From Eubacteriales bacterium (lineage in GTDB: Bacteria > Bacillota > Clostridia > Lachnospirales > Lachnospiraceae), in contig JAUNGB010000025.1 in NCBI GenBank assembly GCA_030524715.1, positions 1 through 57,546 on the forward strand: DNA of 57,546 nt, given 5' to 3'. Made by a program: the position numbers and the translations under genes. The notes beneath the pieces are model-generated. The model was not told where the DNA came from. It saw nothing but the letters and a program-made list of their open reading frames with translations, and did not search any database. This document shows, in pieces, positions 41,974-55,201 of this stretch. Positions within the stretch are counted from its first letter, which is position 1. Every line of letters begins with the position of its first letter.

Positions 41974-42027
41974 ACGAAAAAGTATCCCCCCGGGAGGCTT
42001 GTTGAGGAAGCCAGGATTTTTTATAAT
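41974..42027 (+). promoter_or_regulatory. Box-A promoter of the methyltransferase-deacylase gene
   Basis: The 30-base box (41974-42003) starts ACGAAAAAGTATCCCCCCGG. Its end supplies the -35 (TTGTTG, 41999-42004), followed by 17 bases and TATAAT (42022-42027). It is 25/30 identical to the box at 44717-44746, which occupies the same place in another promoter. Confidence 0.7.
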
Positions 42028-42172: not shown

Positions 42173-44638
42173 ATGGGAAAATTACAAGAGGAAATACAGA
42201 GCTACTGGACAAAACGCGCCGGAGGATATTCAGAATATAATCAGCAGGAGCTGTTGGACGAAAGAAGAGGAAAATGGAAAACGGCTTTGCTTAAACGGAT
42301 CGGGCAGCAGTTTCCGGGGAGAGCGCCGGAAACGATTAAGGTGCTGGACATCGGAACAGGACCGGGATTTTTTGCTATTTTGCTGGCGGAGGCAGGGTAC
42401 CGCGTAACTGCTGTGGATGCCACAGAGGAAATGTTAAAGGAAGCGAAGCGGAACGCTGGCTGTCTGGAAGAGAAGATTCAGTGGGTACATGGAGATGTAC
42501 AGAAGCTGGAGCTTATGGACGGGCAGTTTGACGTGCTTGTTACCAGAAACGTCACCTGGAATCTGGAGCATCCGGCGCAGGCATATGAGGAATGGCTTCG
42601 GGTGTTGAAGGAAGGCGGGATTCTTCTGAATTTTGATGCGGACTGGTACGGACATTTATTTAATAAAGAAAAACGTGCGGCCTATGAAGAAGACCGCAGG
42701 CAGGTAGAAGAGAACAGATTAGAGGACTATTACCTTGATACAGATATTGATGCCATGGAGGACATCGCAAGACAGGTACCCTTAAGCAGCCTGCCAAGAC
42801 CCTCCTGGGATATCCGCGCTATGGAAGAGGCCGGATATACAGAGGTAGTGTGTGAGGAAGAAATCTGGAAGGAAGTCTGGACAGAAGATGAGAAGGTCAA
42901 TTACGCTTCTACCCCTATGTTTTTGCTGACAGGAAAAAAGGGAAAATCAGAGGTATTCTGTCTGGGAGGGCTGAAAGTCCGCCCCGGGGAGCGGGTCAAT
43001 GGCTGGATGACGTTTCAGGACGGCGGGATCAGGCTCCCGGCGACTATTTTAAACGGGAAAGAACCCGGAAAGACCGTATTGATCACCGCGGGTATCCATG
43101 CCGGGGAGTATGTGGGGATTCAGGCTGCCATAGAGCTTGCACAGAAACTGAAAATTGAAAAGGTAGTGGGAACCATCGTTATTCTGAAAGTCGTAAACCG
43201 TCCTGCATTTGAGAAAAGAAAGGGAAGTATGGGGCTTGAGGACGGAAAGAACCTGAACAGGGTTTTTCCGGGAAACCCTGAAGGAACGGAGATGGAGCGT
43301 CTTGCCTGGGTGATTTCCCAAAAAGTGCAGCCTGCTGCGGATTATTATATTGACCTTCACAGCGGGGACGACTATGAACAGCTTACCCCTTATGTGTATT
43401 ATGCGGGGATGGCATCCCCGGAAGTAGCCGCTTTATCGAGAAAAATGGCGGAACAGGTGGATGTTCCTTATATGGTGAAATCCAATGTCGCCTCCGGCGG
43501 CTCCTATAATTATGCGGCGTCACAGGGAATTCCAAGTATTCTCATTGAGAGAGGCGGCATGGGACAGTGGAGCACCGAAGAGGTCCGTTCCACCAGACGT
43601 GATGTGCGGAATATTCTCTGCCATCTGGGCGTTTATAAAGGTCAGAAGGATTTTCGTAAATATTTTCCTCTGGATGTGGCGGATGTACGCTATCAGGATG
43701 CGGCACACGGAGGATGCTGGTATCCCCGTAAGTCTGCAGGCGATATGTTCCGGAGAGGCGAGGTACTGGGAGAGGTTCGCGACTATGAAGGGAATGTAAT
43801 GGAGGTAAGTATCGCCGAGTATGACGGAGTGGTCCTTTACCAGTCAGCGACTCTTCAGGTAGTGGAAGACGGCCCGATGATCGCCTACGGACGCATTGTG
43901 AAGAATTTTGACGACAGAAAAGAGCGTATTGTTCAATATTGGAGTAAACGAAGCGACAGCTTTTTGGAACAGAGGCGTAAAGAACTTCACAGTTCTATGG
44001 CAAAGCGGTGGATAACTGAGATTCAAAAGCAGCTTCCGGTGGATAAGCCGCTGAAAATTCTGGATGTAGGGTGCGGTTCCGGATTTTTTACTATTTTGCT
44101 GGCAAAGCAGGGACATGAAGTGATCGGTACAGACTTGACTCCTGAGATGGTGCAAAATTCCATATCCCTGGCAAAAGAAGAGCAGGTGAATGCTGTTTTT
44201 CAGGTGATGGATGCGGAAAATCTTGATTTTGCTGATGAAACCTTTGATGTGGTGATTTCCAGAAATCTCACCTGGACTCTGCCTCATGCGGAACTGGCGT
44301 ATCAGGAATGGAACCGCGTGCTGAAAAAAGGCGGAGTTTTGTTAAACTTTGACGCCAATTATGGGCTGAGTGACTTTTCCGATACTTCGAACCTTCCGAA
44401 GGATCACGCCCATAACAAGCTTGGAGATGAATTGATGCGGGAGTGCGAGGAGATTAAGCGTCAGCTTCCCATTAGCTCCTACAGCCGTCCCGCCTGGGAT
44501 CTGGAGGTTTTGGGACAGTTGAAGTTTCAGGAATTTTCTATTGATCTGGGCATCAGCAAACGGATTTATGTGGATAAAGACGAGTTTTATAATCCTACCC
44601 CGCTGTTTATGCTCTTTGCAAAGAAAATGGCAGAATAA
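42173..44638 (+). CDS. Methyltransferase-AspA/AstE deacylase-methyltransferase fusion
   Basis: An 821-residue protein of three enzyme domains. Residues 1-255 are a class I SAM methyltransferase (motif I VLDIGTGPGFFAI at 57-69). Residues about 262-575 are a zinc deacylase of the succinylglutamate desuccinylase/aspartoacylase type (His309 and Glu312 in GIHAGE, His396 in DLHSG, catalytic Glu459 in LIERGG). Residues about 583-821 are a second methyltransferase (ILDVGCGSGFFTI at 629-641). The two methyltransferases are homologous to each other (both start with YW-KR and share RN-TW-L), so the gene arose by duplication around the deacylase. Own promoter; the Nik/Dpp-type transporter follows. Likely handles a small amino-acid-like molecule; substrate unknown. 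Confidence 0.88.
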   Translation: MGKLQEEIQSYWTKRAGGYSEYNQQELLDERRGKWKTALLKRIGQQFPGRAPETIKVLDIGTGPGFFAILLAEAGYRVTAVDATEEMLKEAKRNAGCLEEKIQWVHGDVQKLELMDGQFDVLVTRNVTWNLEHPAQAYEEWLRVLKEGGILLNFDADWYGHLFNKEKRAAYEEDRRQVEENRLEDYYLDTDIDAMEDIARQVPLSSLPRPSWDIRAMEEAGYTEVVCEEEIWKEVWTEDEKVNYASTPMFLLTGKKGKSEVFCLGGLKVRPGERVNGWMTFQDGGIRLPATILNGKEPGKTVLITAGIHAGEYVGIQAAIELAQKLKIEKVVGTIVILKVVNRPAFEKRKGSMGLEDGKNLNRVFPGNPEGTEMERLAWVISQKVQPAADYYIDLHSGDDYEQLTPYVYYAGMASPEVAALSRKMAEQVDVPYMVKSNVASGGSYNYAASQGIPSILIERGGMGQWSTEEVRSTRRDVRNILCHLGVYKGQKDFRKYFPLDVADVRYQDAAHGGCWYPRKSAGDMFRRGEVLGEVRDYEGNVMEVSIAEYDGVVLYQSATLQVVEDGPMIAYGRIVKNFDDRKERIVQYWSKRSDSFLEQRRKELHSSMAKRWITEIQKQLPVDKPLKILDVGCGSGFFTILLAKQGHEVIGTDLTPEMVQNSISLAKEEQVNAVFQVMDAENLDFADETFDVVISRNLTWTLPHAELAYQEWNRVLKKGGVLLNFDANYGLSDFSDTSNLPKDHAHNKLGDELMRECEEIKRQLPISSYSRPAWDLEVLGQLKFQEFSIDLGISKRIYVDKDEFYNPTPLFMLFAKKMAE

Positions 44639-44716: not shown

Positions 44717-44769
44717 ACGAAAAAATAACCCCCGGGGCGGCTTGTATTAATGTGGTAATTTGTTAAAAT
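44717..44769 (+). promoter_or_regulatory. Box-A promoter of the first Nik/Dpp transporter operon
   Basis: The box (44717-44746) starts ACGAAAAAATAACCCCCGGG. It supplies TTGTAT (44742-44747) as -35, then 16 bases and TAAAAT (44764-44769). It shares 25 of 30 bases with the box at 41974. Confidence 0.65.
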
Positions 44770-44972
44770 GTTTTCAATGACACAGGATAGTGTCTGAGAA
44801 TCACTCATATGATTGCGTGTCATACCTCCACCCAAAACAAGACATGCAGATACAGGAGATTCCCTCCGCAGGGCAGTTGTAGGATGAGCAGCCTATAGCT
44901 GCCTTTTTTCTAAATCTGACATTGAGTGCGCGCGTGCAATAATGCAATATAAAAAAATAAGGAGTGGCAACT
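44770..44972 (+). promoter_or_regulatory. Transporter leader with an internal terminator
   Basis: Downstream of the box promoter the leader has a GACAC/GTGTC hairpin (44779-44794). Then comes a full intrinsic terminator: GGCAGTTGTAGG (44872-44883), 8-base loop, CCTATAGCTGCC (44892-44903), six Ts. It lies 64 bases before the binding-protein start, so it could attenuate the operon; it might alternatively just end read-through from upstream. No known riboswitch was recognised. Confidence 0.55.
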
Positions 44973-46562
44973 ATGAAACTGAGAAAAATTACCAGCCTGT
45001 TATGCGCCTTTGCCATGACAGCAGCACTTTTTACATCCCAGGCAATAACGGTCAGCGCGGATGCGTCAGATAACAGCGTGATCGTAACCATGCCGACAAC
45101 GTCCGAACCGGAATCAGGCTTTGATCCCGCCTATGGCTGGGGCGCCGGAGAGCATGTACATGAGCCTCTCATTCAGAGTACGCTGGTGCGTACCACAAAA
45201 GACCTTGGTATTGAGAATGATCTGGCAACAGAATACGGCTGCAGCGAGGATGGGCTTACCTGGACAGTTAAGATACGCGATGACGTGAAATTTACGGACG
45301 GGGAGCCTCTTACAGCAGAGGATGTAGCTTTTACCTATAATCTTTGCCGCGATAACAGCTCCGTAAATGATTTTACCATGCTGAAGGAAGCGGTTGCCGT
45401 GGATGATACGACTGTGGAATTCCATATGAATGAGGCCTATTCCATCTGGCCCTATACCATGGCGATTGTAGGAATTGTTCCGGAACACGCCTATGATGAA
45501 AACTACGGACAGAATCCCATCGGTTCCGGGCGTTATATCATGAAACAGTGGGACAAAGGCCAGCAGGTTATCTTTGAGGCAAACCCGGACTACTATGGAG
45601 AAGCTCCGAAAATGGAGAAAGTAACCGTTCTTTTTATGGAAGAGGATGCTGCCCTTGCAGCGGCAATGGCAGGACAGGCGGATGTTTCCCACACGGCAGC
45701 TTCCTACAGCGACCAGACGGTGGATGGCTACAGCCTGCTGAATGTAGCCACTGTGGATAACCGCGGTTTTAACCTTCCCTGTACAGAGCCGGAGGAAGCA
45801 GACGGCATCACACGCGGCAATTCCTTTACGGCGGATGTCAATGTGAGGCGTGCCATTAACCTGGCGATTGACAGAGAGGAAATGATCCGGAACGTGCTGA
45901 ACGGTTATGGAACCGTTGCCTACAGTGTCTGTGATAAAATGCCATGGTATAACGACGCCGCGGTTATGGAATATGATCTGGACGCTGCAAAGGCTCTGAT
46001 GGAGGAAGCCGGATGGACAGAAGGCGAAGACGGGATCCGCGAGAAGGATGGAGAAAAAGCAGAATTTACCCTGATGTTCCCCGGCAGTGATTCTGTCCGT
46101 CAGGCGCTCGCAGAGGATACTGCAAACCAGTTGAAGGAGCTTGGCGTGGAAGTAAAGACAGAAGGCGTAGGATGGGATACCGCTTATGACCGTGCGCAGT
46201 CTGAACCGCTTGTATGGGGATGGGGAGCCCACAGCCCTATGGAGCTTTATAATATTTACCATACCATTAAGGATACAGGCTCCGCCGAATATTCTCCATA
46301 TGCCAACGAAACGGTAGATCAATATATGGATGAGGCGCTTCAAAGCTCTGATCTGGAGGAATCCTATGACCTTTGGAAGAAGGCCCAGTGGGACGGAATC
46401 ACAGGAATCACACAGGACGGAGATATTCCGTGGATTTGGCTGTGCAACATCGACCATCTGTATTTCGTACGCGACGGTTTGAAGGTCGCCGACCAGAAAA
46501 TTCATCCTCACGGACATGGATGGTCCATCGTAAATAATGTTGATGAATGGGAATGGGAGTAA
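44973..46562 (+). CDS. Family 5 solute-binding protein (dipeptide/nickel type), first transporter
   Basis: A 529-residue extracellular solute-binding protein of the DppA/NikA family. The signal peptide spans residues 1-29 and ends TVSADAS. The family core includes PAYGWGAGEHVHEPL, VKIRDDVKFTDGEPLTAEDV and VRRAINLAIDREEMI. Substrates of the family are peptides, nickel chelates or opine-type metallophores. A cysteine at residue 11 lies inside the hydrophobic core and does not make a convincing lipobox, so type I cleavage is likely. AAGGAG is 9 bases before the ATG at 44973. First gene of a five-gene transporter operon. Confidence 0.92.
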   Translation: MKLRKITSLLCAFAMTAALFTSQAITVSADASDNSVIVTMPTTSEPESGFDPAYGWGAGEHVHEPLIQSTLVRTTKDLGIENDLATEYGCSEDGLTWTVKIRDDVKFTDGEPLTAEDVAFTYNLCRDNSSVNDFTMLKEAVAVDDTTVEFHMNEAYSIWPYTMAIVGIVPEHAYDENYGQNPIGSGRYIMKQWDKGQQVIFEANPDYYGEAPKMEKVTVLFMEEDAALAAAMAGQADVSHTAASYSDQTVDGYSLLNVATVDNRGFNLPCTEPEEADGITRGNSFTADVNVRRAINLAIDREEMIRNVLNGYGTVAYSVCDKMPWYNDAAVMEYDLDAAKALMEEAGWTEGEDGIREKDGEKAEFTLMFPGSDSVRQALAEDTANQLKELGVEVKTEGVGWDTAYDRAQSEPLVWGWGAHSPMELYNIYHTIKDTGSAEYSPYANETVDQYMDEALQSSDLEESYDLWKKAQWDGITGITQDGDIPWIWLCNIDHLYFVRDGLKVADQKIHPHGHGWSIVNNVDEWEWE

Positions 46563-46566
46563 ACAA

Positions 46567-47562
46567 TTGTTGAAACATAATTTACAGTTTGCTGCGAAAA
46601 ATTTCATAAGGGTCCTTTTGCTTTTGTTTGCGGTGAGTATCGTAACGTTTGCTCTGGTAACTGTCTCCCCCATTGACCCGCTTCAGGCCAACGTGGGGCA
46701 GGCAGCCCTTGGTTCCATGAGTGAAGCCCAGAAGGAAAAGCTGAAATCCTACTGGGGCGTGGACAAAGCCCCGCTGGAACGATATCTGAACTGGGCGAAG
46801 GATATGGTAAGAGGGGACATGGGAACGTCCCTTCTTTACCGTCAGCCGGTGACAAAGGTAATAGCCGTGAAATTATCCAACTCACTGTTTTTGATGGGAC
46901 TTGCCTGGGTGATTTCAGGGCTTCTGGGATTTATTCTTGGAGTGACCGCAGGCGTATTCCGGGGACGTCTGCCGGATAAAATAATCAGGGGATATTCTCT
47001 GGTAATTGCCAGTACCCCTGCCTTTTGGCTGGCATTGCTTCTGCTGATCATATTCAGCGTATGGCTTGGGCTGTTTCCTATTGGCTTGAGTGTTCCTATT
47101 GGAGTGGAGGCCGGCAGCGTTACTTTTCTGGACAGGGTGCGGCATGCGATCCTTCCGGCCGTGACCTTAAGCATCACCGGAATTTCCAACATTACCCTGC
47201 ATACCAGAGAGAAAATGATCGAGATTATGGAGAGCGACTATGTGCTTTTTGCAAGATCCAGAGGGGAATCTGTCCGGAGTATTGTGTGCAGGCATGGGTT
47301 GCGCAATGCCTTGCTTCCGGCCATGACTTTGCAGTTTGCCTCTATCAGTGAAATCATCGGCGGCTCTGTTATGGTAGAACAGGTCTTTTCTTATCCGGGA
47401 CTGGGGCAGGCGGCTGTGGCTGCAGGAACAGGAAGCGACGTGCCGCTGCTGATGGGCATTACATTGATTACGGCGGCAATTGTCTTTTTGGGGAATTTTA
47501 TCGCCAACCTTTTATACGGCGTGGTTGACCCGCGTATCCGAAGGGGAGGGCATAGAGAATGA
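46567..47562 (+). CDS. ABC permease, DppB/NikB type, first transporter
   Basis: A 331-residue membrane subunit with the usual first helix followed by an extracellular part (DPLQANVGQAALG, then LERYLNWAKDMVRGDMGTS). The cytoplasmic coupling loop lies around ILPAVTLSITGISNITLHTREKM split as AVTLSITGISNIT and TREKM. I place the start at the TTG at 46567, with GGGAG 7 bases upstream and directly after the binding-protein stop; an ATG at 46537 inside that gene is the alternative. It overlaps the next permease by 4 bases. Confidence 0.88.
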   Translation: MLKHNLQFAAKNFIRVLLLLFAVSIVTFALVTVSPIDPLQANVGQAALGSMSEAQKEKLKSYWGVDKAPLERYLNWAKDMVRGDMGTSLLYRQPVTKVIAVKLSNSLFLMGLAWVISGLLGFILGVTAGVFRGRLPDKIIRGYSLVIASTPAFWLALLLLIIFSVWLGLFPIGLSVPIGVEAGSVTFLDRVRHAILPAVTLSITGISNITLHTREKMIEIMESDYVLFARSRGESVRSIVCRHGLRNALLPAMTLQFASISEIIGGSVMVEQVFSYPGLGQAAVAAGTGSDVPLLMGITLITAAIVFLGNFIANLLYGVVDPRIRRGGHRE

Positions 47563-48380
47563 AAATAAACCAGAGACAAAAAGCCAGAGTATTATTGGCT
47601 GTCGCAATTATTTTTCTGACGGCGGTAGCCGTTTCCGGCAGCCTTCTTCGGGAAGAAGCCATGGTGACGGATTTTTCAAGGAAAAATATTGCGCCGTGCC
47701 TCCAATATCCGTTCGGGACGGACTGGCTTGGCCGGAATATGTTTTACCGGACGCTGACCGGGCTTTCTATGAGTATTCTGATCGGCATCAGCGCGGCAGC
47801 CGTAAGCGCAGTGCTTGCCATGATTCTTGGAATTGCGGCGGCTGCATTGGGAAAAAGGGCGGACTTGGCCATTACCTTTGTAATTGATATGATCCTTGGG
47901 ATTCCCCATATTTTGTTATTGATCCTGATCTCCTACGCGATGGGGAAGGGGCTGAAGGGAGTTATTGTGGGCGTTGCCCTGACTCATTGGACTTCCCTCG
48001 CAAGGCTTATCCGCGGAGAAGTGATGCAGCTTAGGGAAAGCGAATATATCCTTATCGCGGAAAAGCTAGGTCACAGTAAGCTGAAAATTGCGGTTAAGCA
48101 TATGGTTCCCCATTTACTGCCGCAGTTTCTTGTGGGATTGGTGCTGATGTTTCCTCATGCAATTCTTCATGAGTCAAGTATCACGTTTCTGGGTTTTGGT
48201 CTTTCCGTGGAGCAGCCGGCAATCGGAATTATCCTGTCAGAAAGCATGAAATACCTGATTATGGGAAAATGGTGGCTGGCGCTTTTTCCGGGTATGATGC
48301 TGGTGCTGACAGTGGTATTGTTCGATCTGGGCGGTGAATCCCTTCGGAAAATTCTGGATCCCAGCAGTGTGCATGAGTAG
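47559..48380 (+). CDS. ABC permease, DppC/NikC type, first transporter
   Basis: A 273-residue partner permease. It has the family N-terminal helix, the FGTDWLGRNMFYRTLTGLSM motif, and the coupling segment THWTSLARLIRGEVMQLRES followed by EYILIAEKLG. It forms the translocation pore with the preceding subunit. It is translationally coupled through an ATGA overlap and followed after 14 bases by the ATPase. Confidence 0.92.
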   Translation: MKINQRQKARVLLAVAIIFLTAVAVSGSLLREEAMVTDFSRKNIAPCLQYPFGTDWLGRNMFYRTLTGLSMSILIGISAAAVSAVLAMILGIAAAALGKRADLAITFVIDMILGIPHILLLILISYAMGKGLKGVIVGVALTHWTSLARLIRGEVMQLRESEYILIAEKLGHSKLKIAVKHMVPHLLPQFLVGLVLMFPHAILHESSITFLGFGLSVEQPAIGIILSESMKYLIMGKWWLALFPGMMLVLTVVLFDLGGESLRKILDPSSVHE

Positions 48381-48394
48381 GAGGCAGGGCGAAG

Positions 48395-49354
48395 ATGATG
48401 TGTATAGATAAAAATAATATATTGGAGATCCATGATCTGTCAGTTTCTTTTATGCAGTATGAAAACAGCAGAAGTACAAGGAAGACAGAGCTTCCGGTGA
48501 TTTCCAGGCTGTCAGTGGCCGTAGGACCGGGAGAGATCGTGGCGGTCGTAGGCTCCAGCGGTTCCGGGAAAAGCCTTCTGGCTCATGCTATCCTGGATAT
48601 GCTCCCTTATAATGCGAAGATAAGAGGAGAAATGTATTTCCGCGGAGAAGCGCTGACGGCGGAGAAGATTCATGAGCTTCGGGGAACCAGGATCGCTTTT
48701 GTTCCCCAGAGTACTACTTATCTGGATCCTCTCATGACAGTGGGGGAGCAGGTGAGCGGAACAAGAAAGGACAGGGAGCGAATAAAAAAGCAGCGGAGCC
48801 TGTTCCGCAGATATGGACTTGGCCCGGAGGTAGACAGGAAATATCCTTTTGAATGCTCCGGAGGGATGACAAGGCGTGTGCTTCTGACTTCCGCCCTGAT
48901 GGGAAATCCGGAATTGATCGTTGCGGATGAGCCGACGCCTGGTATGGATCTGGCATTGGCCAAACGTTCTATGGAGGATTTTCGGAAATTTGCGGACGAA
49001 GGAAATGGAGTTCTGCTGATTACCCATGATATTGAACTGGCGCTGGAGGTCGCGGATAAAATTGCTGTTTTTTATGCGGGAACTACCGTTGAAGAAGCGA
49101 TGGTTTCAGATTTCCGGTCAGAAGAAACTCTGCGTCATCCTTATACAAAGGCGCTTTGGAGAGCATTGCCCCAGAATGGCTTTCAGCCGCTTCCCGGAAG
49201 CCAGCCTTATGTGAAGGACATGCCAAAGGGATGCCCTTTCGGGCCGAGATGTGAATTTTTCGGAGAAGATTGCCGGGGGGAGATTCCGCAGGTTCAGCTT
49301 GGAAACGGGACGGTGCGGTGTGTGATCAAGTCGCGCAGCGACCTGCGTCCATAA
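48395..49354 (+). CDS. ABC ATPase, DppD/NikD type, first transporter
   Basis: A 319-residue ATPase. Walker A is GSSGSGKSLL (Ser/Leu after the Lys), signature region ECSGGMTRR, Walker B LIVADEPTPGMD and switch His in LITHD. The C-terminus keeps the oligopeptide-transporter extension with a cysteine motif (CPFGPRCEFFGEDC), which binds an iron-sulfur cluster in some family members. AGGAGG lies 10 bases before the ATG. A palindromic repeat follows and separates it from the short second ATPase. Confidence 0.92.
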   Translation: MMCIDKNNILEIHDLSVSFMQYENSRSTRKTELPVISRLSVAVGPGEIVAVVGSSGSGKSLLAHAILDMLPYNAKIRGEMYFRGEALTAEKIHELRGTRIAFVPQSTTYLDPLMTVGEQVSGTRKDRERIKKQRSLFRRYGLGPEVDRKYPFECSGGMTRRVLLTSALMGNPELIVADEPTPGMDLALAKRSMEDFRKFADEGNGVLLITHDIELALEVADKIAVFYAGTTVEEAMVSDFRSEETLRHPYTKALWRALPQNGFQPLPGSQPYVKDMPKGCPFGPRCEFFGEDCRGEIPQVQLGNGTVRCVIKSRSDLRP

Positions 49355-49386: not shown

Positions 49387-49487
49387 ATGGCGGAGGCATG
49401 CTGCGGCAGTCGGACAATATGGAGAGAATTGGAAATTCAGAAATGAATCCGGTGATGCGAAAAACAAAAGGATACAGGAGGAATTTC

Positions 49488-50084
49488 ATGATCTTAGAGG
49501 GAAAGAATCTTACATTTACATATGACGGCCGGAAGGCGCCTGTTTTTTCCGGAGTAAATCTGCAGGTGGAAAGCCATGAAAGGGTTGCTGTCCTTGGACC
49601 CAGCGGATTCGGGAAGACGACCCTTTGTAAGGTATTGAGCGGCTATCTGAAGCCCAGGGAAGGGGAAGTCCTTCTGGACGGCAGGCCGCTTCCGAAAAAA
49701 GGATACTGTCCGGTGCAGATGATCTGGCAGCACCCGGAGCGGGCTGTGAACCCCAGGCTTAGAATGTGTGACACTCTTGCGGACGGGCAGGATATTGAAG
49801 AAAGAATTGTCCGGGAGCTTGGAATAGAACCCGACTGGATGAACCGCTATCCACAGGAGCTTTCCGGCGGGGAGCTGCAGCGCTTTTGTATTGCCCGGGC
49901 ATTGGGAAAGGATACCCGGTTTTTGATCGCAGACGAGATCAGCACCATGCTGGATCTGATTACCCAGAGCCAGATCTGGGCGTTTTTGTTGAAAGAGATA
50001 CGGGAACGGGAGATCGGTCTGGTTGTGGTCTCCCACAGTGAGCCGCTTTTACAGCAGGTGGCTGTACGGAGGGTTCAATTTTAG
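49488..50084 (+). CDS. Short ABC ATPase, DppF/NikE type, first transporter
   Basis: A 198-residue ATPase with Walker A GPSGFGKTT, signature LSGGELQRF, Walker B FLIADEISTMLD and switch His in VSHSE. It is much shorter than the usual 250-330 residues: the region between Walker A and signature is trimmed and the C-terminal oligopeptide extension is missing. All core motifs remain, so it is probably active as the second ATPase of the heterodimer. AGGAGG lies 7 bases before the ATG at 49488. Last gene of the first transporter; a small TTTTAGC/GCTAAAA hairpin overlaps its stop. Confidence 0.88.
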   Translation: MILEGKNLTFTYDGRKAPVFSGVNLQVESHERVAVLGPSGFGKTTLCKVLSGYLKPREGEVLLDGRPLPKKGYCPVQMIWQHPERAVNPRLRMCDTLADGQDIEERIVRELGIEPDWMNRYPQELSGGELQRFCIARALGKDTRFLIADEISTMLDLITQSQIWAFLLKEIREREIGLVVVSHSEPLLQQVAVRRVQF

Positions 50085-50228
50085 CTTTTTCTTGCTAAAA
50101 TAAGTAGAAATTGAAAACAATTTGTGAATAATTGCTGAAAATTGATGATTGTTCGGCAAGGAATGTCTGAGAGCGCCGGATGGTTATGAAATTTGCGGGT
50201 AAAAGCGGAGAGGAAGCAGAGAGAAGAG

Positions 50229-51173
50229 ATGTGGAAATATATTGTAAAGAGACTACTGCAATTAATTCCGATTCTGATAGGGATCACATTTTTATCCTTT
50301 GCCATGATGCGTCTGGCGGGCGGAGATGCCGTTACCTATATGTATGAGAATGCAGGTACGGCAGTTTCCCAGGAGATTATCGATGAGGCTAAGGCGAAAT
50401 ATGGATTGGATAAGCCGTTTCTGGTTCAGTATGTCAACTGGCTCGGCGGCATGCTGACAGGTGATATGGGAGAAAGCTATGTATCTCATAAGGATGTGTT
50501 TGAAACTTTTGTTTCAAAGCTGCCTGCGACATTGCTTTTAACGCTGTCGTCGATTCTGCTTACGGTTATCATCGCGATTCCGCTGGGGATTTTATCGGCG
50601 GTCAGGCATAACAGGTGGATCGATTATCTGATACGCTTTTTAAGCTTTATCGGTAATTCCATGCCAAACTTTTTTGCGGCGCTGGTTCTGATGTATTTTC
50701 TTTCGATTCGACTGCAGTGGCTCCCTGTTATTACTACTGACAATACGGTGGTCAGTTTGATTTTGCCTACCCTGACTTTGACTCTTTCCATGGCCTCAAA
50801 ATATACAAGACAGGTGCGAACGGCTGTTCTGGAGGAACTGAATAGGGATTATGTAGCCGGGGCAAAGGCGCGGGGTGTCCGCGGCCATGTAATTATCTGG
50901 AAAAGTGTTATGAAATCCTCGATGCTGACGATCATTACCTTACTTGCGCTATCCATCGGAAGCCTGCTGGGAGGAACAGCGATCGTAGAAAATATTTTCA
51001 TGTGGGACGGGGTCGGAATGCTGGCGGTGGATGCGATCACCATGCGCGATTATCCCATTATTCAGGCTTATGTGGCATGGATGGCAATTATTTATGTGGC
51101 AGTAAATCTGGTAACGGATATTATTTATCATTATCTGGATCCCCGTGTGCGATTGGGAGGTAATGAAGCATGA
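50229..51173 (+). CDS. ABC permease, DppB/NikB type, second transporter
   Basis: A 314-residue membrane subunit beginning WKYIVKRLLQLIPILIGITF, with RLAGGDAVTYMYENAG as the external loop and the helical core and coupling loop following. It starts a second, separately organised transporter (permease, permease, binding protein, two ATPases). It is only moderately similar to the permease at 46567, so this is not a recent tandem duplication. It is 144 bp after the first transporter; no clear promoter was found, so co-transcription is possible. Confidence 0.92.
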   Translation: MWKYIVKRLLQLIPILIGITFLSFAMMRLAGGDAVTYMYENAGTAVSQEIIDEAKAKYGLDKPFLVQYVNWLGGMLTGDMGESYVSHKDVFETFVSKLPATLLLTLSSILLTVIIAIPLGILSAVRHNRWIDYLIRFLSFIGNSMPNFFAALVLMYFLSIRLQWLPVITTDNTVVSLILPTLTLTLSMASKYTRQVRTAVLEELNRDYVAGAKARGVRGHVIIWKSVMKSSMLTIITLLALSIGSLLGGTAIVENIFMWDGVGMLAVDAITMRDYPIIQAYVAWMAIIYVAVNLVTDIIYHYLDPRVRLGGNEA

Positions 51174-52024
51174 TGAACGATAAGAACGTTACGGTCCGTG
51201 AACAGAAGATTAAGAAGAACCATATAAAAGCCAAGCTGATATTTTTCCTGGCGCTTGCGGCGGCGCTTCTGTTGATTGCAATTTTTGCAAAATATCTTTG
51301 CCCCTATGATCCCTACGAGCAGAATCTTATGGATGCTCAAAAGCCGCCCAGTGCGGCGCATCCTCTTGGGACTGACCGTTATGGGCGCGATATGCTTTCG
51401 CGTGTTATCATTGGAAGCACAACGAGTATTTTTGCAACCCTTGTTCTGGTCGCGATTATAACCATTGTGGGAACTGCTATCGGCATTGTCTGCGGATGGT
51501 GCGGAGGAAAAGCAGACACGATCCTGATGCGTATTTCAGATGTTTTTCTGGCTTTTCCCGGATTGGTATTTGCCCTTGCGGTGGCGGGCGTTCTGGGAGG
51601 CGGCGTGCAGAATGCCATTATTGCCCTGGGGGCAATAAGCTGGCCTAAGTATGCACGTTTGGCAAGAGGGCTGACTCTGGCGCAGAAGGATTCCACATAT
51701 TTGATGGCGGCAAGGCTGGCGGGAAGCAGTACTCCCAAGCTTCTGGTGAAACATATTCTTCCAAATATCGCCGGATCGATCCTGGTTACTTCTGTCCTGG
51801 ATATTGGGACGATGATGATGGAACTTGCAGGCCTTTCTTTTCTGGGACTTGGGGTAAAACCGCCTATGGCTGAGTGGGGAAGCATGATCAGTGACGGACG
51901 CGTGATGCTTCAGACTGCTCCCTGGATGGTGCTTGCGCCGGGCGGGGCAATCTTTGTTACTGTTATGATCTTTAATCTGCTGGGGGATACGGTGAGAGAC
52001 TTTATGGATCCAAAGCAGAGATAG
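51170..52024 (+). CDS. ABC permease, DppC/NikC type, second transporter
   Basis: A 284-residue partner permease with a charged cytoplasmic N-terminus and first helix FFLALAAALLLIAIFA. It has the family block HPLGTDRYGRDMLSRVIIGS and the coupling loop KYARLARGLTLAQKDS. The start overlaps the previous stop (ATGATG, the first ATG used here). It forms the pore with the preceding permease. The binding-protein gene follows after 67 bases. Confidence 0.93.
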   Translation: MMNDKNVTVREQKIKKNHIKAKLIFFLALAAALLLIAIFAKYLCPYDPYEQNLMDAQKPPSAAHPLGTDRYGRDMLSRVIIGSTTSIFATLVLVAIITIVGTAIGIVCGWCGGKADTILMRISDVFLAFPGLVFALAVAGVLGGGVQNAIIALGAISWPKYARLARGLTLAQKDSTYLMAARLAGSSTPKLLVKHILPNIAGSILVTSVLDIGTMMMELAGLSFLGLGVKPPMAEWGSMISDGRVMLQTAPWMVLAPGGAIFVTVMIFNLLGDTVRDFMDPKQR

Positions 52025-52091
52025 CAAAGAACTCGCCTTGCCGGATTCTTTGCACTTTGTAAAAAATAAATGAGAAAGTTGAGGAATGAAC

Positions 52092-53645
52092 ATGAGAAGG
52101 AAAGTTATAGCAGCGCTGTTCGCATGCGCAATGGTTTCTGCAATGACAGCGATGCCTGTTTTTGCAGAGGGAGAAAAGACATTTGTTTATGGCACTACCG
52201 GATACGGGGTGGAAATGGGCGACGAAGGCCTGAATCCGCATAATAATTATTCCGGCTGGAGCGCGCTTCGTTATGGCGTGGGAGAAACATTGTTTAAGTA
52301 TAATGACAATATGGAAATTGAGCCGTGGCTGGCTACTGATTATGAATTCGTGGATGATACTACCGTTAAGATTACGCTGCGTGACGGCGTTCAGTTCTCC
52401 AGTGGAAGGGATATGGACGGGGAAGCCGTAAAAGAATGTCTTGATCATCTTCTTGCAGTACATGACCGTGCTCCAAGTGATTTAAAAATTGACCATATTG
52501 ATGCAGACGGAATGACGATCACGATTTATACTACGGAGCCATGTCCGGCGATCATTAATTACCTTGGCGATCCCTACGGGGCGATCATTGATATGGATTT
52601 CGGAACGGACGGAGTAGAGGGAGATTCCACAGGAACCGCAAATGTAGCGGGTACCGGTCCATATATTGCCACAAATGTTACAGATACTCAGATCGATCTG
52701 GTAAAGAATGAGAATTATTGGGGCGGAGAGGTGAATGTTGACAAGGTTGTTGTGAAGACCTTCAGCGACGCAAGTTCTCTGGCGGCTTCTCTCCAGACAG
52801 GAGATATTCAGGGGACTTATGGACTGGCCTATGATAGTTATGCGTTATTTGACGGAAATCCGGAATATACTATTAATTCCTGCGCTACCAGCCGATGCTT
52901 CTTTGGGCAGTTTAATTATGATTCCGAAATCATGCAGGAGGAAGCGGTGCGTAAGGCTATCACCATGGGAATTGATAAAGAAGGCTTTTGTTCTGTACTG
53001 CTGGGGGGACGCGGAATTCCGGCAAAGGCAGCATTTCCCAGCAGCTTCAGCTATGGTAATGAGGCGGTAACCGTCCTTGATTATGATCCGGAAGGCGCAA
53101 AAGCCGTTCTTGAAGAGGCTGGCTGGACAGATACGGACGGCGACGGATATGTTGATAAAGACGGACAGAAGCTTACGGTTCGCTGGCTGACTTATCCTGG
53201 GCGTCTGGAACAGCCGAAGCTGGCGGAATATGCGCAGGCTACCCTGAAGGATATCGGGATTGAAGTAGATGTAAACTGTACTCAGGATCATTTGAGCGTT
53301 CTTGAGACAGGAGCATATGATATTTATTTAAGCTCTCTTACAACCGCGCCTACCGGCGACCCGGAGTATTTCTTTACTACATGTGCGCTGGAAAGCTCTG
53401 CAAAGAACCGTTCCAATCATAAGATTGAGGAAGTTGAAACCCTGTATGAGCAGCTTCATCAGGAGTTTGACAGCACAAAGAGAGGTGAGCTTGCTGTTCA
53501 GATGCAGCAGGCAATGCTGGATGAAAGTGCAATTTTCTTTGTATCCCATTTAAATATGGGAATTGTCACTAAGGCAAACGTAACAGGTATGGCTGCGCAT
53601 CCGTGTGATTACTATGAGATTACTGCGGATTTGAATGCGGAATAG
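52092..53645 (+). CDS. Family 5 solute-binding protein, second transporter
   Basis: A 517-residue DppA/NikA-family binding protein. The signal peptide ends MPVFAEG (residues 1-26). The core includes YGVGETLFKYNDNMEIEPWL, VKITLRDGVQFSSGRDMDGE and EEAVRKAITMGIDKEGF. A cysteine at residue 12 (LFAC) is near the start of the hydrophobic stretch; it could be read as a poor lipobox, but the downstream type I site is better. The second ATG (52092) fits TTGAGG better than 52086. Substrate class: peptide, nickel or metallophore complex; cannot be resolved. Confidence 0.9.
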   Translation: MRRKVIAALFACAMVSAMTAMPVFAEGEKTFVYGTTGYGVEMGDEGLNPHNNYSGWSALRYGVGETLFKYNDNMEIEPWLATDYEFVDDTTVKITLRDGVQFSSGRDMDGEAVKECLDHLLAVHDRAPSDLKIDHIDADGMTITIYTTEPCPAIINYLGDPYGAIIDMDFGTDGVEGDSTGTANVAGTGPYIATNVTDTQIDLVKNENYWGGEVNVDKVVVKTFSDASSLAASLQTGDIQGTYGLAYDSYALFDGNPEYTINSCATSRCFFGQFNYDSEIMQEEAVRKAITMGIDKEGFCSVLLGGRGIPAKAAFPSSFSYGNEAVTVLDYDPEGAKAVLEEAGWTDTDGDGYVDKDGQKLTVRWLTYPGRLEQPKLAEYAQATLKDIGIEVDVNCTQDHLSVLETGAYDIYLSSLTTAPTGDPEYFFTTCALESSAKNRSNHKIEEVETLYEQLHQEFDSTKRGELAVQMQQAMLDESAIFFVSHLNMGIVTKANVTGMAAHPCDYYEITADLNAE

Positions 53646-53658
53646 GAGATCATGAATT

Positions 53659-54498
53659 ATGGAACCATTGCTACAGGTAGAACACGTTACTGTCTGTTAT
53701 AATGGGAACCCTGTTGTGCAGGATGTCAGCTTTACATTAGAAAAAGGTGAGATCCTTGGGGTGGTTGGTGAGTCCGGCAGCGGCAAAAGTACGATCATCA
53801 AAGCAATCATAGGACTTCTGGGAGAGGGCGGTATGGTTACCCGCGGTGATATTTATTATCAGGGCCGGAATGTGGTGGATATGCCGCAGAAAGAGAAACG
53901 CAGGCTTCTGGGGCCGGAGATCGGTATGGTATTCCAGGACTGCAAAGCTGCCCTGTGCCCTATCCGCACTGTCGGCGCCCAGATTTATGAGAGCCTGTCA
54001 GAGCATGAGAAGGTAACGAAGGAAGAAACCTATGAACGTGCAGGCATTTTGATGAAAAAAACAGGCATGGATGATTATCAGAGAGTATTAAACAGCTATT
54101 CTTTTGAATTATCCGGCGGCATGAACCAGCGTGTGGGGATCTGTGCGGCGATGATGATGAAGCCTTCCCTGCTTCTTGCTGATGAACCTACCAGTGCGCT
54201 GGATGTGACGGTGCAGAAGCAGGTGGTGGAGGAAATGAAGCTGATGCGCAGAGAGTATGGAACGGCAATGATTCTGGTGACTCATAATATCGGGGTGGTA
54301 AACGCCATGGCAGACCATGTGCTGGTTCTTAAGCAGGGCAGGATGATGGATTATGGACCTGCCGACCGGGTACTGAGCCACTCGGAAAATGCCTATACCA
54401 AAAAATTAATGGATTCTGTACTGCACTTACGGAGGAATAGAAATGTCGGAGGTCATTTTAGAAGCAGAACATTTGAAGAAGGTGTTTCAAACACGTAA
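53659..54498 (+). CDS. ABC ATPase, DppD/NikD type, second transporter
   Basis: A 279-residue ATPase with Walker A GESGSGKST, Q-loop MVFQDCKAALCPIRT, signature LSGGMNQRV, Walker B LLLADEPTSALD and LVTHN with the switch His. It lacks the long C-terminal oligopeptide extension. The final 56 bases overlap the start of the next ATPase gene in another frame, which indicates tight coupling. Confidence 0.92.
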   Translation: MEPLLQVEHVTVCYNGNPVVQDVSFTLEKGEILGVVGESGSGKSTIIKAIIGLLGEGGMVTRGDIYYQGRNVVDMPQKEKRRLLGPEIGMVFQDCKAALCPIRTVGAQIYESLSEHEKVTKEETYERAGILMKKTGMDDYQRVLNSYSFELSGGMNQRVGICAAMMMKPSLLLADEPTSALDVTVQKQVVEEMKLMRREYGTAMILVTHNIGVVNAMADHVLVLKQGRMMDYGPADRVLSHSENAYTKKLMDSVLHLRRNRNVGGHFRSRTFEEGVSNT

Positions 54499-55201
54499 GG
54501 ATTCTTTTACTGCCGTTGATGATGTAAGCTTTAAGCTGGAGAGAGGCGAATGTCTTGGAATCGTCGGGGAATCCGGTTCCGGAAAAAGTACCATTGCAAA
54601 AATGCTCACTCATCTGACGGATATTACCGGGGGAAAGGTGGTTCTTTTTGGAGAGGATATTACCTGTGTAAAGGGCAGGGAACTTCGAAAAATTTATCAG
54701 AAGATGCAGATGGTGTTTCAGATGCCTATGGAATCCTTTGATCCCCGCCGTACGCTGGGAGACGGTATTGGAGAAAGCCTCCGGAATCTGGGGATGGGCA
54801 GGAAAGAGACAAAGAAAAAGGTGGAAGAGCTTCTGATTACCTGCGGACTGACACCGGAATTTGCACGCCGTTATCCCCATGAGGTGAGCGGAGGGCAGTG
54901 CCAGAGAGCGGCGATCGCCCGTGCGCTGGCTGTAGAGCCGGAAATCCTGATCTGTGATGAGGCTACCAGCGCCCTTGATGTAACAGTCCAGAAACAGATC
55001 CTGGAGCTTTTGGTCGAATTGAAGGAAAAGAAAAATTTATCATTTCTCTTTATCTGCCATGATCTGGCGCTGGTACAGGCGTTTTGCGAGAGAGTTTTAG
55101 TTCTGTACCGCGGAAAGACAATGGAAATGGGAATTACGGATGAGATTATTAATTATCCGAAAACTGATTATACAAGAAAACTGATCGATTCAGTATTATA
55201 A
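54443..55201 (+). CDS. ABC ATPase, DppF/NikE type, second transporter
   Basis: A 252-residue ATPase with Walker A GESGSGKST, Q-loop MVFQMPMESFDPRRTLG, signature VSGGQCQRA, Walker B LICDEATSALD and FICHD. It is the partner of the preceding ATPase and ends the second transporter. Its start lies inside the previous gene with GGAGG upstream. A strong 22-bp stem terminator follows. Confidence 0.92.
   Translation: MSEVILEAEHLKKVFQTRKDSFTAVDDVSFKLERGECLGIVGESGSGKSTIAKMLTHLTDITGGKVVLFGEDITCVKGRELRKIYQKMQMVFQMPMESFDPRRTLGDGIGESLRNLGMGRKETKKKVEELLITCGLTPEFARRYPHEVSGGQCQRAAIARALAVEPEILICDEATSALDVTVQKQILELLVELKEKKNLSFLFICHDLALVQAFCERVLVLYRGKTMEMGITDEIINYPKTDYTRKLIDSVL

Follow-up and report, generated by a model that had tools for sequence, protein, structure and literature searches.

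A methyltransferase-deacylase-methyltransferase fusion protein that most likely belongs to a nickel/cobalt-acquisition regulon in Lachnospiraceae

Described systems that resemble the locus reported here do so part by part. DoeB (N-acetyl-L-2,4-diaminobutanoate deacetylase; structure 6twm, equivalog model TIGR02994) is a free-standing enzyme of ectoine breakdown, and the plant phosphoethanolamine N-methyltransferases (5wp4, 5wp5) have two methyltransferase domains per chain, which carry out successive methylations in a plant lipid precursor pathway. On the transport side, the binding proteins and permeases beside the gene discussed below are nearest to the NikA/YntA-type nickel importers (SaNikA, YpYntA), for which no methyltransferase-deacylase partner is described among the literature matches listed. 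The Cnt staphylopine system shares the importer superfamily and the general logic of metal-ligand traffic, but the importers found here do not reach the Cnt transporter cut-offs. What follows concerns a gene in which a deacylase resembling the first of these enzymes is fused between two methyltransferases. It lies in a window (by which we mean the whole 57,546-nucleotide stretch of DNA that was analysed) that is one entire contig of its source genome.

Architecture of the fusion and its distribution

The fusion gene occupies positions 42173..44638 of the plus strand as one uninterrupted open reading frame encoding 821 amino acids, with an ATG start that is preceded, as judged by eye, by a GGAG-type ribosome site. 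Its product begins with a class I SAM methyltransferase domain, MT1 (42173..42937, residues ~1-255), continues with an AstE/AspA-type (DoeB-like) zinc deacylase domain (42944..43897, residues ~258-575) and ends with a second class I SAM methyltransferase domain, MT2 (43904..44635, residues ~578-821). The Pfam models Methyltransf_11 and Methyltransf_25 each match in two stretches (166.5 and 155.7 bits, respectively, the best stretch being residues 629-724), and both copies qualify as class I SAM methyltransferases, with the glycine-rich SAM motifs DIGTGPG and DVGCGSG; among the 25 listed of 83 NCBIfam matches, no named methyltransferase equivalog (UbiE, ArsM, BioC, UbiG and others) reached its cut-off. 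The best solved profile matches of the methyltransferase family are the plant enzymes mentioned above, which, unlike the fusion, are without a deacylase domain. The central domain belongs to the family AstE_AspA_cat (PF24827), which it matches at residues 298-484 with 98.5 bits against a cut-off of 25, and its closest solved relatives are 3cdx, 3na6 and DoeB. With DoeB it shares the AstE/AspA catalytic domain, in which the HxxE, NLNR and H motifs align; DoeB, however, has no methyltransferase domains, and the score of the fusion against the DoeB equivalog model (111.2 bits against a cut-off of 402.7) stays below that threshold.

Following the ASPA literature, we take the HxxE motif and a further His to be zinc ligands, an NxR motif to concern the substrate, and a Glu to be catalytic. 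Residues H309, E312, H396, N360, N362, R363 and E459 are invariant in an alignment of 12 full-length orthologues, where the SAM-motif glycines of MT1 and MT2 do not vary either, and in an alignment of 34 rows H309, E312, H396, N360 and R363 are still invariant, with N362 and E459 present in at least 90%. The description given in an earlier note on this DNA, of two homologous methyltransferases (MT1 and MT2 share 39% identity across 237 aligned residues) around a complete AstE-like zinc domain with intact ligands, is thus borne out by the reading frame, the Pfam matches and the alignments, and the key residues, whose loss from homologues was to be looked for, are kept in both alignments. The note also knew of no described enzyme with this domain order, and the literature search yielded, among the matches listed, no characterised orthologue and no published account of an MT-AstE-MT enzyme or of its regulon, and nothing was found in it that links aspartoacylase, nickel and clostridia.

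The pattern of conserved residues bears directly on one possible explanation, namely that the AstE part serves mainly in metal handling (as a chaperone or in sensing), with the methyltransferases modifying proteins or other targets and not an imported ligand. The lone AstE relatives in two genomes (G001 and G005) do have His-rich C-terminal tails, which would suit such a role; however, it is the catalytic residues that are kept and not only the metal ligands, while in a scan for His-rich segments a density of six His in 30 residues was reached by no fusion protein, and we regard this explanation as very improbable.

Chance, an assembly artefact and decay can all be ruled out as the origin of the fused frame, since it recurs at full length in the same form in its own genome and in 11 of 36 other genomes of the same genus (Blautia), at 59-71% identity, and since 26 fused MT1-AstE-MT2 frames (one of them cut by a contig end) are present in 77 loci taken from public records. 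These 77 loci derive from the 80 best of 372 relatives (the more distant relatives including Fusicatenibacter, Lactonifactor, Clostridium magnum and Acetobacterium), and they further contain 31 AstE-MT2 and 2 MT1-MT2 fusions and, as separate genes, 36 MT1, 11 MT2 and 11 lone AstE, one of the last being a 98-residue fragment. The two MT1-MT2 fusions without AstE lie at L150:7983-9530 and L153:8001-9494; L150 also has a P-type ATPase in the vicinity and, further downstream, an AstE gene. Within the genus, a separate MT1-type gene lies near AstE-MT2 in six genomes (with an intervening reading frame in G020, and with a diverged MT1-type gene, 38% identical, in G036), and in G012 only the last part of the locus is visible, at a contig end. 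Outside the family, AstE of the fusion type is rare, occurring in 9 of 291 genomes of the class, its own included (E 1e-40).

In a tree built from 99 domains (thinned from 161 at 82% identity), MT1 (45 rows) and MT2 (54 rows) form two separate clades, each with support of 100/100. These clades are old, and a recent tandem duplication of one methyltransferase can be rejected. The fused or unfused state of MT1 requires 12 changes on the tree, at least nine of which are forced by well-supported branches. Judged by this tree, two distinct methyltransferases, MT1 and MT2, were recruited at an early date, and the junction with MT1 is labile; as it has opened or closed repeatedly, a single polypeptide is not essential. 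The emphasis originally placed on one polypeptide must therefore be softened, since many close relatives encode MT1 as a gene of its own, although the fusion itself is real.

The promoter element and the genes behind it

Downstream of the fusion gene, the window contains two ABC importers of the Opp/Nik type, all of whose genes are on the plus strand. Importer 1 comprises a solute-binding protein (44964..46562), whose nearest solved relative is the Yersinia nickel-binding protein YntA (3ry3/4ofl, 341.7/339.3 bits), permeases B (46537..47562) and C (47559..48380), both PF00528, and two ATPases (48395..49354, PF00005 and oligo_HPY; 49398..50084, PF00005). Importer 2 has permeases B (50193..51173) and C (51170..52024), which exceed the NCBIfam cut-offs for the nickel permeases Opp2B (366.5 against 350) and Opp2C (313.7 against 300), a solute-binding protein (52086..53645) whose nearest solved relatives are the nickel-binding protein 3t66 and SaNikA, and two ATPases recognised by profile match (53659..54498 and 54443..55201). 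Both binding proteins score below the nickel cut-offs, that of importer 2 with 308 against 600 (Opp5A_nikA) and 199 against 393, and that of importer 1 with 132.5 against 600 and 173 against 393 (TIGR02294).

Upstream of the fusion gene, at 41983..42002 on the plus strand, is the putative promoter/operator element TATCCCCCCGGGAGGCTTGT, which fits the pattern TAWCCCC-N3-GGNGGSTTRY without mismatch and overlaps the -35 box. The fusion promoter itself has TTGTTG as its -35 (41999-42004) and TATAAT as its -10 (42022-42027), with a 17-bp spacer. A second copy, TAACCCCCGGGGCGGCTTGT, precedes importer 1 at 44726..44745, also on the plus strand, followed by a -10 TAAAAT at 44764-44769, and the two upstream regions have a 29-bp stretch in common. 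In 99 of 115 site contexts, the best -10-like hexamer follows the element at a distance of 18-20 nt, and a match to TATAAT in at least five of six positions is found in 94, against 29 in shuffled tails.

When gene starts were scanned for the element (at most two mismatches, within 250 bp, one fusion and one MT1 start having been dropped for their short flanks), it was found before 20 of 25 fusion starts, 27 of 35 MT1, 10 of 31 AstE-MT2, 15 of 60 PermB, 3 of 7 SBP1, 3 of 6 CbiM, 3 of 52 SBPni and 1 of 2 MT1-MT2, and before none of the 11 lone AstE, 11 MT2 and 25 LysR starts, the controls giving 2 of 550 for unlabelled genes and 0 for the reversed pattern; it must be remembered, in reading these counts, that the pattern was drawn from part of the same loci. 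Scans of genomes are the more independent tests. Across the genus, 28 sites were found in 20 of 41 genomes with no control hits, and across the family 74 exact sites in 54 of 397 genomes with two control hits. Sixty-three of the latter sites were fetched, and the 62 with a downstream reading frame stand before 24 Opp/Nik-type importers (one operon, with two sites, being counted twice), 14 CbiMQO systems, 10 MT/AstE operons, 2 CsoR-type genes and 12 others. Of these others, a Peripla_BP_2 or FecCD importer is present in four and a regulator gene lies directly behind the site in one (L345), while several look unrelated (4-alpha-glucanotransferase, CTP synthase, LUD proteins, with FTHFS further down).

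Variants of the element also occur. Three Acetobacterium loci (L135, L136, L148) have a more palindromic form with two mismatches, TAACCCCCCATGGAGGTTGT, placed between LysR and the AstE-adjacent importer, and L151 has a variant, while Clostridium magnum L138 and L165 give only matches with three mismatches, which are about as frequent as control hits. Some of the genes behind the element may be recorded individually. Other methyltransferases follow it directly at L317:3564-4184 and L339:186-770, both belonging to the 12 other sites, that of L317 (one of the four Peripla_BP_2/FecCD sites) being followed in turn by a Peripla_BP_2 protein. At L257:482-1228 and L316:3418-4164, a 249-residue PIG-L-like protein stands between the element and an SBP61-type binding protein; its Pfam match is weak, being below cut-off in L316 and absent in L257, and in L257 the usual zinc motifs look degenerate by eye, but it is perhaps another ligand-processing protein. 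In one genome (G033) the reading frame behind the element, L243:1-1225, appears by eye to be a class II (B12-dependent) ribonucleotide reductase.

A candidate regulator and the link to nickel

Among described regulators, the RcnR/CsoR family and InrS are the closest: CsoR sites are described as G-tract pseudopalindromes (PMC3902906), while RcnR is reported to bind TACT-G6-N-AGTA and InrS to act also at the nik import operon (PMC7055735). On grounds of association, an RcnR/CsoR-type protein is a candidate regulator of the element-bearing promoters, its binding to the element being putative. The protein encoded in the source genome, C84, is assigned to this family by its PF02583 match and Cys-His-Cys metal set, and it is similar to PF02583-type proteins of L304, L306, L165 (G149) and L136 (Acetobacterium), the group being 56-78% identical to the L304 protein. 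All five have His-rich N-termini; those of L304 and L306 lie behind the element and that of L165 adjoins AstE. The regulator of L328 is more distant (48%) and is without the His-rich N-terminus. The Cys-His-Cys set is present in all the regulators listed, and also in more distant paralogues.

In a family sample of 299 genomes from 298 genera, this regulator subfamily (called on an 84-residue core at E 1e-18 or better, with identities down to 42%) is present in 37 of 37 element-bearing genomes as against 50 of 262 others, those 50 having the regulator without an exact site (p 2e-23, uncorrected for relatedness and completeness). It is found in 21 of the 27 genomes with AstE and in all 13 of those with fused AstE-MT2, and nine regulator-site pairs lie within 10 kb of each other. 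In the source genome itself, no element site was found at the regulator gene.

A second association concerns the CO dehydrogenase of acetogens, which requires nickel. Calling Ni-CODH by TIGR01702 at E 1e-50 (3 of the 64 genomes so called score below the family cut-off, and none of these carries AstE), we find it in 19 of 19 same-genus genomes with an AstE-MT2 locus (counting the source genome and G012) as against 10 of 18 without, most of the genomes that lack Ni-CODH being less than fully complete. The family sample gives 18 of 27 AstE genomes against 46 of 272 others (p 1e-7, again uncorrected for relatedness and completeness), and 24 of 37 element-bearing genomes against 40 of 262 others. 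Where MT2 is fused to AstE, Ni-CODH is present in 12 of 13 genomes, and AstE without fused MT2 is hardly tied to it (6 of 14, p 0.05). The exact element occurs in only 9 of the 27 AstE genomes, against 28 of 272 others (p 0.002).

Taking together the position in the operon, the promoter element and the co-occurrence with the regulator and with Ni-CODH, the fusion most likely belongs to a nickel/cobalt-acquisition regulon; nickel is the metal favoured, but it could be cobalt. The same evidence supports, in its general direction, the earlier suggestion that a small molecule such as a metallophore is handled next to an importer. A study of Acetobacterium wieringae reports NikA-type genes, but describes the import and export systems that balance its nickel as yet to be identified (PMC10134865).

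It could also be argued that what the importers carry is a nutrient, either peptide-like or an N-acyl amino acid, which the fusion degrades or detoxifies, the metal link then being a by-product of the kinship between NikA and Opp. Importers of the Opp/Nik superfamily do also transport peptides, and DoeB, with its role in ectoine breakdown, is a close characterised deacylase; this account nonetheless explains neither the sharing of an element with CbiMQO and with a metal-type repressor nor the association with Ni-CODH, and it seems distinctly unlikely.

Neighbouring genes and the fate of an imported ligand

Within the family sample, AstE occurs at 32 places in its 27 genomes (E 1e-60 or better), of which 28 were mapped, the other four (in G000 and G005) being the window and separately mapped loci. 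In 19 of the 28, AstE has an Opp/Nik-type importer no more than ~10 kb away, where 0.7 would be expected from the 108 binding-protein genes in 86 Mb, and L213, which has a binding-protein gene, makes a twentieth. The remaining eight (L203, L208, L214, L221, L222, L223, L224 and L228) have no importer nearby, although L203, which begins at a contig end, yet has two importer ATPases, and L221 ends at one. An importer is near AstE in 55 of 67 AstE loci from public records, and several AstE-importer gene pairs overlap or abut. Eight further loci from the wider class include five with an importer (L165, L166, L167, L168, L170) and three without (L169, L171, L172). CbiM/CbiQ, P-type metal ATPases, ArsR and the PF02583 repressor recur in a minority of AstE loci, and at the loci of some lone AstE genes a P-type metal ATPase is found together with ArsR.

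The reading that we prefer, to which we would give an even chance, is that the fusion works in the cytoplasm as the ligand-processing enzyme of a system for acquiring nickel (or cobalt) and dismantles an imported ligand. Metal shortage would cause the RcnR/CsoR-type regulator to let the element-bearing promoters fire; the YntA/NikA-type importers would then bring in the metal on an N-acyl-amino-acid-like organic ligand, whose acyl bond the AstE domain would hydrolyse, and MT1 and MT2 would methylate donor atoms of the ligand or of its product, so that the metal would be released, its re-chelation prevented, and it could reach nickel enzymes such as CO dehydrogenase. In this scheme we infer that the domains are active, what they act on and in which sequence, which sign the control has, and that the ligand is dismantled and not made. 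Processing of an imported ligand is favoured by the sharing of the promoter element with importers of chelated divalent metals, and by the fact that AstE and the methyltransferases each occur beside importers without the other, a pattern that would fit separate action of each on the ligand brought in. The His-rich tails of two lone AstE proteins, and the metal ATPase and ArsR genes near others, also count in its favour.

The main rival would have the fusion produce all or part of a small metallophore, with AstE removing an N-acyl protecting group and MT1 and MT2 methylating an amino-acid-derived chelator, which would be exported and then re-imported by the adjacent importer under common metal control. 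The regulon evidence would fit this equally, as MT and AstE genes share the element with importers, and MATE-like proteins (recognised from one MATE reference) do lie near AstE in 8 of 67 public and 3 of 28 family loci. On the other hand, annotation by eye of the clustered unlabelled neighbours of the 77 loci revealed no recurrent scaffold-building or other biosynthetic enzyme, and pairs of methyltransferases and AstE are each found with importers where the other is missing; we think synthesis unlikely on balance. That neither a recurrent biosynthetic neighbour nor a constant exporter was seen hints at dismantling as the direction.

Several observations nevertheless weigh against ligand processing: the loci without an importer (8 of 28 in the family, 3 of 8 at class level); the 9 of 27 AstE genomes without Ni-CODH, and the restriction of the exact site to as few; the sub-threshold nickel scores of the binding proteins, and a regulator gene in the source genome that has no site of its own; and the breadth of the regulator call, given the lowest identities accepted and a metal set that distant paralogues share.

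Stated in its fullest form, the proposal would be of a new route by which a redox-inert metal is released from its carrier, in which one multifunctional enzyme disarms an imported Ni/Co chelator by deacylation and two distinct methylations, within an InrS-like regulon of gut and acetogenic Firmicutes; this is possible, but we put it forward tentatively. If true, disarming of the chelator would be the nickel counterpart of the reduction or esterase cleavage that serves for ferric siderophores. The element, the candidate regulator, the importers and CbiMQO offer a testable regulon, and the set of enzymes should reveal the carrier molecule, and with it a new nickelophore or else a new means of dismantling one.

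As to the rest of the window, an Rfam search of it gave no matches at gathering scores. The genes upstream of the fusion include cell-wall type proteins and others, and at the contig end (56233-57546) there appear, by eye, to be an IS607-type serine recombinase and then a TnpB-like reading frame.
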